In this document: piece by piece, positions 11,189 through 20,425 of the stretch | How positions within the stretch are numbered: the first letter of the stretch is position 1 | How the letters are laid out: the number at the start of each line of letters is the position of its first letter | Source: a virus | Reading direction: 5' to 3' (one strand) | Virus record (IMG/VR): IMGVR_UViG_3300046777_002658 | Span: 124,001-188,000 of that record | DNA length: 64,000 nucleotides | The notes under the pieces: model-generated | The model's database searches: none | What the model was told of the DNA's origin: nothing | Seen by the model: only the letters and a program-made list of their open reading frames with translations | Position numbers and translations under genes: made by a program

Positions 11189-11367
11189 GCTTAGATAAAA
11201 AAGACCAGGAGCGAGCATACCTAACTCGCATAACCAAGAACTTAACTAATGCTGAAAAAAAGCTTGAAAGAGCTGAAGCTAATCTACTGCAAGCTAAAGC
11301 TTTAAAAGAAAAAGCTACTAGAGAGTTAGCTGACTATAACAATTTAGCAACTAACCAAGATGGTTGA
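11185..11367 (+). CDS. Small coiled-coil protein
   Basis: This 60-residue, lysine/glutamate-rich helix (NAEKKLERAEANLLQAKALK) lies between recA and the polymerase and overlaps both by a few bases. The overlaps support translation. Its function is unknown. Confidence 0.5.
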   Translation: MSLDKKDQERAYLTRITKNLTNAEKKLERAEANLLQAKALKEKATRELADYNNLATNQDG

Positions 11368-13768
11368 CATAATAACCAGAACCAAAAAGCTGTTTGAGTA
11401 CATAACATCGTTGGATGCTTACTCAGCAGCCTGCAGTTTTCTTTTTGGTTCTCAAAGATTAGCTGTGGATACAGAAACCTGTGTAAGAGAAGAATGGCTG
11501 ACTAAAAAGGGCTCGGCTCTAGATCCGCACACAGGCAGAATATCTTTGATTATTATACAGAAGCCAAAAAGTCTACCCTACGTCTTTGACTTGTTTCACT
11601 TAGAGGCTGCTGGCTATAACCCTCAGATGCTCATAGATGTTCTGGAATCAACTGTAGAGTATCAGCTTGGAGTTAATTACAAGTTTGATATGCAGTTTAT
11701 GAAAGGAACTCTAAACTATATGCCAGAGAGGGTCAAAGATGTTCTGATAATGGGTAAACTGATTAGTAATGCAACTGGCTCTAAGGTTGGTAAAGGTCAT
11801 GGTCACAGCTATGCTGACTTAACTAGAGAGTACCTCAACGTTCACATCACAGGTAAAAAAGACCTTAGAACCTCATCTTGGGGGTTAGGTCTTTCTGCTA
11901 GATCCTTGGATAGTGAGTGGTGGTATGAGAAGATTCTTTATGCTGCTACTGACGTGAAGTACCTCTTTCAACTTCACGACATTATGGAGAAGGTAATATG
12001 TGACCCTTTGCCTAACTCTCCCTTACTGGGTTGGAATGGTGACTCTGGCTCTTATGGTTTGGGAATGGCTAGAGTCCTGAAAAGAGAATCTCAGTTCATT
12101 CCTATAATCGCTGAGATGGAATATGGGGGTATGCCAGTCTCCCTAGAGACAATGACTCTGTACCAAGAAGGCGTGACAGAGGCTCTAGAAGACTGTGGAG
12201 TGTACTTATCCAAAGAATTAGAGCTGGACACCCCAATCAGAAACTGGGAGGGAAGGCTTGTGCCTACTACCAAAGCCCTTAAGATGTTGAGGTCTTCAAC
12301 TGGCTTACTGGATATACTTCAGAAGGCTATTAACATGAAGAAGATTAGTGATGTGCAGGGCGTCACTCTTAAAAGGATGCTGGACATAATTGACCTTCTT
12401 CACTCCTTTAATAAGGAAGATACAGGGGGTGATGGAGAGTCAGGAGTCGAGGACATCTTTATCAACAGTGAAGAAGAGAACCTGTTTGGTGAGCTGACCA
12501 TTATGGAAGAGTCAGAACTACTAGCTATTAGTCCAGTAGTTAAGTCTATCCTAGAGTTTAAGAAGCTAACCAAACAAGAGGGGATGGACTTGAGAAAGTT
12601 TGTTAATCCTGTCACAGGAAACATACATCCTAAGTATGACCAATTAGGAGCAGCTACAAGCCGATCTTGTATAGCTGCTGGAATGAAAGTACAAGTACCA
12701 GGAGGTCAAAAGAACATAGAAGATATCCGAGTAGGAGACTATGTTTACTGCTACACAGAAGGGGGAAAACCCACTTTGAGAAAGGTTCTAAGAACTTGGT
12801 GTCATGGTGAGCAAGAAGTTGTTGCTGTTAAGTGGCAGAGTACGTCTAACAAGAGTGTAGTCGGTAAAGTATTATGCACTCCAAACCATTTGTTCAAAAC
12901 CAAACAAGAGGGGTGGGTGAAAGCAAAAGACCTTAAACGTTACCAAAAGATTTTTCATCTTCAAAGAGAAAGCTTAACGCCTTCAGCTAAGAGAAGTAGT
13001 AGACCCAGACTTTATGGGACAAACTGCTTTATGGAATATGAGCAAGTAGTAATAAAGAGAGAGTATTTTAGTGCTCCTAATAACTGGCACATTCACCACA
13101 AAGATGAAAACCCTTGGAACAATAACTTATGCAACTTGGAGGTAATGACAGGTACAGACCATTTAAGACAACATAAGATAGAAAGAGCAGAAAAAGGTTT
13201 AACCAAGTTTGAACACCTGTGCCTACCAGAAAATAGACCAAAGCTAAAACATGAAGCTGAACACCCTAGCTGGATTGAGAAAAGTAAGTTTCAACTACTG
13301 AAGATGTTAGCACAAGCTAAAGGGCACCCAGCCCAGGTAGACATGGACTTTGAGACCTTTAAGAGAAAGTGTGCTTTATACTCTATAAACATCAAAGAAG
13401 TTACTTCTAGATATGGCAAAAATGGAGTATATCTGAACAGAGCCAACGTTAGAAGAGCTTTAGACTCAAGCAAAAACACTGAGATTGCTTCTAGAAAACT
13501 AGGAATTGGCACAAGACGCTTAATAGAAGTTTGTAGAAAGTTAGGAGTTAGCTACTCTAATCATTTTGTTACTTCTGTACGCCCAGCCGGTAAAGCTATT
13601 GTGTATGACTTAGAGGTAGAGGAGTTTAACAACTTTATTTGTGAGGAGCTATGTGTTCATAACTCTTCTTCTAACCCTAACAGTCAGCAGATAGGCAATA
13701 GAAGCCATGTTACTCTCACCTTTTCAAAACCTTGGTTTGCTCCCATTGGGATTGACCTTAACCTATAA
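11360..13768 (+). CDS. DNA polymerase I family A, N-terminal block with intein 1
   Basis: The first 430 residues hold a DEDDy 3'-5' proofreading exonuclease: DTET (37-40), NYKFDMQF and YAATDVKYL supply the three motifs. The family A polymerase domain then begins. At extein AATSRS an intein interrupts; after it the extein resumes SSSNPNSQQIG, which joins to the family A consensus (TxRLSSSNPNLQ). About 25 codons after IG the frame no longer resembles polymerase and ends at 13768, because an insertion follows. The coding block therefore ends near 13690. The product is completed by blocks at 13950-14038, 14676-16438, 18205-18274, 19700-19789 and 20174-20425, predicted to give a polymerase of roughly 770 residues. 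Confidence 0.9.
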   Translation: MVDIITRTKKLFEYITSLDAYSAACSFLFGSQRLAVDTETCVREEWLTKKGSALDPHTGRISLIIIQKPKSLPYVFDLFHLEAAGYNPQMLIDVLESTVEYQLGVNYKFDMQFMKGTLNYMPERVKDVLIMGKLISNATGSKVGKGHGHSYADLTREYLNVHITGKKDLRTSSWGLGLSARSLDSEWWYEKILYAATDVKYLFQLHDIMEKVICDPLPNSPLLGWNGDSGSYGLGMARVLKRESQFIPIIAEMEYGGMPVSLETMTLYQEGVTEALEDCGVYLSKELELDTPIRNWEGRLVPTTKALKMLRSSTGLLDILQKAINMKKISDVQGVTLKRMLDIIDLLHSFNKEDTGGDGESGVEDIFINSEEENLFGELTIMEESELLAISPVVKSILEFKKLTKQEGMDLRKFVNPVTGNIHPKYDQLGAATSRSCIAAGMKVQVPGGQKNIEDIRVGDYVYCYTEGGKPTLRKVLRTWCHGEQEVVAVKWQSTSNKSVVGKVLCTPNHLFKTKQEGWVKAKDLKRYQKIFHLQRESLTPSAKRSSRPRLYGTNCFMEYEQVVIKREYFSAPNNWHIHHKDENPWNNNLCNLEVMTGTDHLRQHKIERAEKGLTKFEHLCLPENRPKLKHEAEHPSWIEKSKFQLLKMLAQAKGHPAQVDMDFETFKRKCALYSINIKEVTSRYGKNGVYLNRANVRRALDSSKNTEIASRKLGIGTRRLIEVCRKLGVSYSNHFVTSVRPAGKAIVYDLEVEEFNNFICEELCVHNSSSNPNSQQIGNRSHVTLTFSKPWFAPIGIDLNL
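12668..13663 (+). mobile_element. Intein 1 in DNA polymerase (HNH homing endonuclease)
   Basis: The 332-residue intein starts with Cys1 (CIAAGMKVQV), has a splicing-block TPNHLFK with its His, and ends LCVHN before Ser+1, the canonical HN/S junction. Between the blocks is an HNH-type segment (WHIHHKDENPWNNN, then LEV..TDHLRQH), so it is likely a mobile intein. Removal joins SRS to SSSNPN and restores a conserved family A polymerase segment. All key splicing residues are present, so splicing should be active. Confidence 0.92.
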
Positions 13769-13955
13769 AGAGTTAAGCGTGCTCTCATGTTTTAGAGAAG
13801 CAGACCACATTTGTTATCCAGATACTAACCTAACCCGAAAGGAGGTGATGCTTGCGTTGAGCACCTTAAAAGCAAAACAGTTGATAGTCCGCAGGCAATA
13901 CTATCAACTGACTAAACGAGGAAAAGAAATAAAATGTCTTCTATTTGCCAAACCA
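13690..13955 (+). other. Unexplained insertion between polymerase blocks 1 and 2
   Basis: Polymerase homology stops after SSSNPNSQQIGN near 13697 and resumes in the same frame as KLSFPGNPRVGFEAKPGRV from about 13955. The intervening roughly 260 bp contain in-frame stops. It could be a short intron, but I cannot see the R and S core segments present in the four introns downstream, so its exact ends and nature are open. The stretch codes for most of a winged-helix protein in another frame. Confidence 0.55.
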
Positions 13956-19699: not shown

Positions 19700-19789
19700 G
19701 AATGTTCGCAAATGATGAAAGAAGCAATGATTCGCGTAAGGAGGGCTATTAAAGGTACAGGAATAGAAATTTTAAATTCAGTGCACGAT
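19700..19789 (+). CDS. DNA polymerase block 5 (90-nt exon, motif C)
   Basis: The exon encodes exactly 30 residues, ECSQMMKEAM to EILNSVHD. It joins IQG of block 4 and supplies motif C (VHDE, with the last Glu from block 6). It follows G19699 and ends in T19789 after CACGAT. Without it the polymerase would lack a catalytic Asp. Confidence 0.85.
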
Positions 19790-20173
19790 TGATTAGTTGG
19801 TCGTGGGTAAAGAGCCTTAATTGTCTGGAACAACTTTAGAGCATCTAGCACCACAACGTAGTTGGAAACAACAAGCGTGAAGGTTTAAAAAGATAGATGA
19901 TTTAGTCAATCAGCAGCCGAGGTGCTAAACTATAAATATGGATGCTTGGCCGAGCGGTTTAGGCAACGACCTCATAAGTCGTGGGGAGACCCAAGAAAAG
20001 TTCAACTCTTTTAGCATCCACTTATAGCACGTACCGGGTTCAACGATCAGTCTCAAGACGTAGGGTGTAAGGACACTCGAAACAGGCTCCCTCATAATTG
20101 AGGATGATATGATCTGACCGTCTAGTGAAAGCTAGAGAGAGTAGTCGGAACCGGGCTACTCGTAACACAAGTG
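19790..20173 (+). ncRNA. Group I intron carrying a tRNA (intron 5)
   Basis: The 384-nt intron splits motif C between VHD and E. It begins TGATTAG after exon T and ends AACACAAGTG before GAACTC. The 3' part looks like a group I core (GATATGATCTGACC, then a P9 hairpin CTAGTGAAAGCTAG resembling that of intron 2). GTGCTA (19922-19927) and TAGCAC (20025-20030), with TATAA/TTATA, form a stem that surrounds a complete tRNA-like fold, so the tRNA sits in a P6-like loop. Core pairing is less certain than in introns 2 and 3. Confidence 0.7.
19940..20020 (+). tRNA. Class II tRNA with CAU anticodon inside intron 5
   Basis: The cloverleaf is complete: acceptor GGATGCT/AGCATCC, D arm GCC/GGC with the GG of the D loop, anticodon stem ACGAC/GTCGT with loop CTCATAA (anticodon CAT), a long variable arm GGG-AGA-CCC, and T arm AAAAG/CTTTT with loop TTCAACT. 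The discriminator is A; CCA is not encoded. The long variable arm is typical of Leu, Ser or Tyr tRNAs, while CAU normally belongs to class I Met or Ile tRNAs, so the identity is unclear. A73 leans to Leu-type charging. Confidence 0.8.
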
Positions 20174-20425
20174 GAACTCAATTGCAGCGCACCTGGCAGA
20201 GCTTGGATAGATGAATCTAAAACTCTATTTGATTCAGAAGGGCGGGTGATAGATAAAGACGGCAAGCCAGCCTTCCCTAAATTCAAATGGGATGCAGAAG
20301 CTGAAGAGGCTGCAAAGCTAATTCACAAAATAATGGTGGATACAGAGACAGAGTTCTTTGCTGCCTATGGTAGTCCCTTGACCGGACGAGCAGAGTACAG
20401 CATTGGACCATTCTGGGTTCACTAA
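20174..20425 (+). CDS. DNA polymerase block 6 (C-terminal exon)
   Basis: The exon starts GAACTC after ...AAGTG and supplies the Glu of VHDE, then LNCSAPGRAWIDES. It ends TEFFAAYGSPLTGRAEY then SIGPFWVH, as in related phage family A polymerases that finish with YGSPLxGRAE. The GTG at 20171 that would start a free-standing ORF is the last three bases of the intron, so no separate start is needed. Confidence 0.85.
   Translation, partial: ELNCSAPGRAWIDESKTLFDSEGRVIDKDGKPAFPKFKWDAEAEEAAKLIHKIMVDTETEFFAAYGSPLTGRAEYSIGPFWVH

Follow-up and report, generated by a model that had tools for sequence, protein, structure and literature searches.

Group I introns have been described in the DNA polymerase genes of different phages. 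That of phage Pf-WMP3 has one, whose first bases, UAA, are a stop codon (PMC3428280), and some Bastillevirinae polymerase genes contain two or three (PMC11878797), while many introns and inteins occur in essential genes of the crAss-like Zeta group (PMC7886860) and of the Jug phages (PMC12363816), including a five-fragment capsid gene and a four-fragment PolB gene. Here, a family A DNA polymerase is described that occupies positions 11360-20425 of a 64,000-nucleotide stretch of virus DNA (the window), i.e., positions 124,001 to 188,000 of the 196,877-bp IMG/VR record IMGVR_UViG_3300046777_002658. As judged from its sequence, this polymerase is very probably split into two genes, which hold four group I introns and two inteins in all.

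As in Pf-WMP3 and the Bastillevirinae, the introns lie at conserved places of a phage DNA polymerase gene and, as in the former, two of them (introns 1 and 4) open with an in-frame stop codon. Unlike in those systems, as far as the available parts of the two reports describe them, four introns and one intein are packed into 321 codons, together with cargo unrelated to homing. The crAss-like and Jug phages differ in the genes that are interrupted and in their hosts, and neither an intronic tRNA nor a conserved non-homing intron gene is found in the available portions of their reports. Ma-LMM01 and other Fukuivirus phages share the identical split between exonuclease/thumb and palm/fingers, at about 30% identity, but lack the introns and inteins, and gp179, the small gene between the halves in Ma-LMM01, is not recognisably the winged-helix protein encoded between them here. 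Each element belongs to a known kind; it is their number in one 321-codon gene that exceeds what those reports, in the parts at hand, give for phage polymerases. The literature searched, in which journal coverage was limited, yielded no case of a tRNA in a P6a loop, of a conserved non-homing intron gene or of tandem introns that use a single 5' splice site. The first two are the more unusual features of the locus, and they went unmentioned in the original prediction, which had been made from the letters of the window.

A family A polymerase in two genes

The region was treated by listing its open reading frames (ORFs), by Rfam, tRNA, Pfam and PHROGs scans and by comparison with relatives, namely the 137-kb contig L002, other viral contigs, Ma-LMM01, MaMV-DL02, PA-SR01, My-WqHQDG and L127, an intron-free contig filed within a metagenome-assembled genome; no near DNA match turned up in a collection of phages. 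All features of the locus lie on the plus strand. The original prediction had proposed one gene, and two are found. The first (11360-13768) encodes the 3'-5' exonuclease and the thumb in a frame that stops 21 residues past SSSNPNSQQIGNR; its product, of 470 amino acids once intein 1 is removed, matches PF01612 (DNA_pol_A_exo1, E 1.6e-14) and has homologues in Ma-LMM01 (gp180) and L127. The second (13934-20425) encodes the palm and fingers, and starts with the ATG at 13934, after AGGAAAAG. Its exon 1 (13934-14038) ends in motif A (DYAG); exon 2, delimited by sequence comparison including L127, consists of two parts (14676-14921 and 16227-16429) on either side of intein 2; exons 3 (18205-18274) and 4 (19700-19789) measure only 70 and 90 nucleotides, the latter ending after the Asp codon of motif C, and exon 5 (20174-20425) runs to the stop codon. 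Motifs A (DYAGQEL), B (RKSAK-SLNFG) and C (HDEL) are all in the palm gene. The usual family A form, a single polypeptide that comprises all four parts (exonuclease, thumb, palm and fingers), is thus replaced by a split variant, and the seven interruptions counted originally come down to six elements (four introns and one intein in the palm gene, one intein in the exonuclease gene).

The assignment to family A, already made in the original prediction on the basis of the three motifs, is borne out by several comparisons. The spliced palm scores 86.5 bits against PF00476 (DNA_pol_A, E 2.2e-24), and the unspliced pieces 17.9 and 13.3 bits; these lie below the Pfam cut-off of 34.3 bits, so that ordinary annotation misses such genes. 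Furthermore, profile A1 matches Taq polymerase I (E 2e-32), and the AlphaFold model of the intron-free palm of L127, with a predicted local distance difference test (pLDDT) score of 84.8, matches the Taq, Bst and Klenow polymerase I structures with E near 1e-14.

The intron-free L127 also provides the template for the joins, since it reads uninterrupted across all six sites (54% identity over 310 palm columns and 50% over 454 exonuclease columns), giving VDYSGQEA, KKAKPLNFG, IRWVDEENSK, AIQGPCAQM and IVHDEIN in the palm and GRTASSNPNFQQ over the intein 1 site of the exonuclease. The predicted RNA joins are 14038/14676, 16429/18205, 18274/19700 and 19789/20174. Three of them are exactly those proposed at the outset; the remaining one, then placed at 16438/18205 (which would give RWVGNFDEENAKG), was nine bases off, and has been discarded on account of the splice-site pairing and the relatives. 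At 16429, exon GGGU pairs with intron GCCC, including the U-G pair that is required at this position of a splice site, L002 has a matching P1 there, and no comparable guide pairing exists at 16438. The corrected join gives RWVDEENAKG, and the uninterrupted relatives read WVDEENSK (L024, L025/L103, L127), YVDESNAKG (L104), VNEDNAKG (Ma-LMM01) and VNEANSKG (My-WqHQDG), none of them with extra residues.

Introns and inteins

At every site a T precedes the intron and a G is its last base, just as had been noticed originally, and all four introns have a P1 with a U-G pair at the 5' splice site together with the terminal G. Intron 1 (14039-14675), which starts with UAA, scores 81.8 bits (E 3e-19) against the group I model RF00028, whose gathering score is 50 bits, and its P1, GGGU/GCCC in the window and AGGU/GCCU in L002, shows a compensatory change. 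Intron 2 (16430-18204; P1 GGGU/GCCC) matches in two halves of 37.0 and 31.1 bits, and the intron of L057 at the same site reaches 77.3 bits. Intron 3 (18275-19699; P1 GGU-AAAU..AUUUGCC, the hyphen marking the splice site), also present in L002, scores 25.5 bits (E 0.0035). In both introns 2 and 3 the Rfam matches are interrupted by long inserts, the P1 helices are proper and the 3' ends are near-identical. Intron 4 (19790-20173; P1 CACGAU/GUCGUG) starts with UGA, and in an alignment of five sequences (the window and four relatives, with cargo removed) 30 of its 79 predicted pairs show double-sided compensatory changes; the L057 intron at this site scores 77.3 bits. The conserved core (P3-P8) is accordingly recognised in intron 1 by Rfam and in intron 4 by covariation and the L057 homologue, and less clearly in introns 2 and 3. 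The claim of the original prediction that group I introns, four in number, occupy catalytic motifs is therefore supported by Rfam, the P1 pairing, the covariation and the intron-free homologue, and self-splicing would be expected of all four. Of the covariance-model matches forecast for each of them, that of intron 1 exceeds the gathering score, those of introns 2 and 3 stay below it, and intron 4 by itself has none.

The two inteins also stand where they had been predicted. Intein 1 (12668-13663; 332 amino acids), between SRS and SSSNPN, has a Hint domain (PF14890, E 4.3e-10) and an HNH endonuclease (PF13392, HNH_3, E 2.4e-6), starts with Cys and ends in His-Asn, with Ser at +1; it is absent from L002, Ma-LMM01 and L127. 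Intein 2 (14922-16226; 435 amino acids), within motif B between RKSAK and SLNFG, has a Hint domain (PF14890, E 1.7e-12) and a LAGLIDADG endonuclease (PF14528, E 2.3e-20), starts with Cys, ends in Gln-Asp, with Ser at +1, and is absent from L002 and L127. The Hint domain, the N-terminal Cys and the Ser at +1 are hence common to both.

The relative L002 (74% identical in the exonuclease and 78% in the spliced palm) carries all four introns and no inteins. In L057, the palm gene is interrupted by four short group I introns, none of which has an endonuclease; two (after RWV and after VHD) are at sites used in the window. Elsewhere, the palm gene holds one intron in L024 (at motif C), two in L025 and one in L105; L027 has probably one, as read from its sequence, with no Rfam match, and L104, L023 and L127 have none. 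Such a patchwork, with introns at conserved motifs, is characteristic of mobile elements that home into conserved DNA. LAGLIDADG ORFs are found in introns 1 and 2 of L002 and in an extra 884-nucleotide group I intron of that contig (18354-19237; Rfam 63.7 bits). This extra intron is inserted precisely where the 5' splice site of the intron 3 homologue lies, forming tandem introns with one shared 5' exon, and its removal restores the boundary GATCCAGGGT|AAATAACAATTG, which matches GATCCAAGGT|AAATTACATTTG in the window. Since both introns can, by sequence, pair with the same exon, they may be removed one after the other or as one. Two further observations concern the relatives: the motif C intron of L024 has a LAGLIDADG-like ORF on the minus strand (8771-9379), antisense to the polymerase, and the intron 1 homologue of L002 contains a tRNA-like remnant (13240-13316; 17.7 bits) in which the T-arm motif is intact.

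Cargo of the introns

Among the scanned ORFs of introns 1-3 of the window, no endonuclease domain was recognised with Pfam or PHROGs, and these introns thus lack that mark of mobile introns. What they do hold is varied. The P1 loop of intron 1 contains an ORF for a helix-turn-helix DNA-binding protein (14055-14423; PF00165, phrog_1303), with weak PHROGs similarity to endonuclease families, a relative of which is free-standing in the intron-less L127, where it immediately precedes the palm gene (E 1.4e-10). Intron 3 carries a non-homing phage gene of 206 amino acids (18667-19287), 72% identical in L002 and with a ratio of nonsynonymous to synonymous substitution rates (dN/dS) of 0.12, near the 0.10 of the palm gene in the same comparison; a whole-record search located paralogues in the same record (79911-80450 and 86590-87084) as well as in G001, G004 and G007, and a protein search of the viral contig collection confirmed no match. 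It is followed by a 101-amino-acid ORF (19293-19598), likewise conserved in L002 (dN/dS 0.24). In intron 2 there are at least five small ORFs (16639-16869, 16869-16997, 17000-17209, 17221-17433 and 17590-18090), with little similarity to the intron ORFs of L002, which include a GNAT acetyltransferase.

The cargo of intron 4 is a tRNA with a CAU anticodon (19940-20021), detected by ARAGORN and scoring 50.8 bits against RF00005, in which the acceptor stem, D-arm, anticodon arm and T-arm are all present, the variable arm is long and CCA is not encoded. It lies in the P6a loop. The P6a loop region of the T4 td intron carries the coding sequence of a homing endonuclease, so the place of the cargo is alike, but here it is a tRNA. 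In the relatives the same loop holds a LAGLIDADG-type ORF (L025) or is minimal (L057). The tRNA is 99% identical in L002 while the flanking intron sequence diverges, which rules out a chance match, and a DNA-pattern scan of the viral contig collection found it in L002 only. In G007, a tRNA/tmRNA (transfer-messenger RNA) array includes a related CAU tRNA whose D-arm is the same. A phage array comprising tRNA-CAU, tRNA-Trp and a tmRNA gene was seen at 1257-1710 of L126 (about 207.5 kb in G007).

On the favoured reading, the tRNA would be matured from the intron. An alternative, restricted to the tRNA, takes it for a structural domain that mimics a tRNA and aids the folding of intron 4, without being cut out and used. 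A long variable arm combined with a CAU anticodon is indeed unusual, and the tRNA is placed precisely on P6a, extending the GUGCUA/UAGCAC stem. Nonetheless, this is unlikely, given the near-identity of the tRNA in two introns that have otherwise diverged, the complete cloverleaf with its Rfam score, the related tRNA in an ordinary array and the fact that the intron homologues of L057 and L025 do without it.

The split, the proposed mechanism and the probable host

Between the two polymerase genes, and overlapping both, lies a small winged-helix gene (13737-13988), whose start is uncertain (TTG at 13737 or ATG at 13707). The AlphaFold model of its product (pLDDT 81.6) has weak Foldseek matches (best E 0.008), among them MarR-type winged-helix proteins and also ribosomal proteins, and homologues occur at the same location in L002, L023, L024, L103/L025, L057, L104, L105 and L127. 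In L023, about 1.6 kb of sequence (6316-7926) separate it from the palm gene.

A single continuous polymerase gene, its halves linked at 13.7-13.95 kb by either a programmed frameshift or a fifth intron, was considered and rejected as very improbable. The halves can be joined, as the uninterrupted protein of Microcoleus phage My-WqHQDG and of the relative L034 attests, but the break falls at the same point in Ma-LMM01 (gp180/gp179/gp178) and in seven relatives (L002, L023, L024, L103/L025, L104, L105 and L127), with separate starts and with relative frames of the exonuclease, small and palm ORFs that vary from one to another, which speaks against a frameshift. Moreover, Rfam gives zero intron matches in that interval, the ORF in between encodes a conserved winged-helix protein and not an intron core, and the palm gene is equipped with AGGAAAAG and a start codon of its own. 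The gap between the two genes is no intron. As for a decaying polymerase, killed by its insertions while a host or unseen phage enzyme copies the genome, it is hardly credible: the interruptions are many, the C-terminus of intein 2 is atypical and the two tiny exons would be lost upon any exon skipping, but the low palm dN/dS, the catalytic motifs that have been kept and every splice signal being intact argue for a functional gene. An intact polymerase elsewhere, which the original prediction had named as part of what would speak against it, does not appear among families A, B and C in the record, which may be incomplete.

The favoured reading of a functional, split and spliced polymerase has points against it as well. 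Introns 2 and 3 lie under the Rfam gathering score and intron 4 alone gives no Rfam match; intein 2 ends in Asp rather than Asn, an atypical C-terminus seen in a few inteins; a second polymerase may lie beyond the record; splicing is deduced from sequence comparison; the exonuclease and palm proteins are presumed to form one enzyme; and the host is deduced from an octamer count and distant relatives.

In this functional polymerase, the locus would probably be transcribed into one RNA, from which the four group I ribozymes would excise themselves, free guanosine attacking after the U of the P1 U-G pair and the last intron G marking the 3' splice site. Translation would then yield two precursors, out of which intein 1 and intein 2 would excise themselves, and the resulting 470-residue exonuclease/thumb and 321-residue palm/fingers proteins would probably assemble non-covalently. 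In the relatives, different subsets of the same or neighbouring insertion sites are filled; the insertions would fall within catalytic motifs because it is conserved DNA that homing endonucleases recognise. Introns 3 and 4 now also contain conserved non-homing phage sequences (the 206-residue gene and the P6a-loop tRNA). It is possible, although put forward only tentatively, that the introns have become gene compartments instead of parasites, having lost their endonucleases and being kept for useful cargo, the tRNA included, which would tie polymerase splicing to tRNA supply, and that the polymerase acts in the form of two proteins, to which the winged-helix protein may be added as a third subunit. 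Provided that splicing does take place, two self-splicing chemistries, acting in conserved catalytic motifs, put a working replicative polymerase together from many pieces, and other gene products are supplied by the introns that are cut out. The locus would then serve as a natural experiment on the extent to which essential genes tolerate fragmentation, on whether group I introns are kept for their cargo and on tRNA maturation inside a ribozyme.

The window contains 11 copies of the HIP1 octamer (GCGATCGC), a cyanobacterial sign, where 0.36 would be expected, and Microcystis is the host of the nearest named relatives. The virus is probably a large phage of a cyanobacterium, distantly related to Microcystis phage Ma-LMM01. 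Apart from the polymerase locus, the window contains two ORFs (35795-36961 and 42354-43433) whose translations, read by eye, resemble TnpB-type transposon proteins, and one on the minus strand (56422-57786) that, also by eye, resembles a large serine recombinase.

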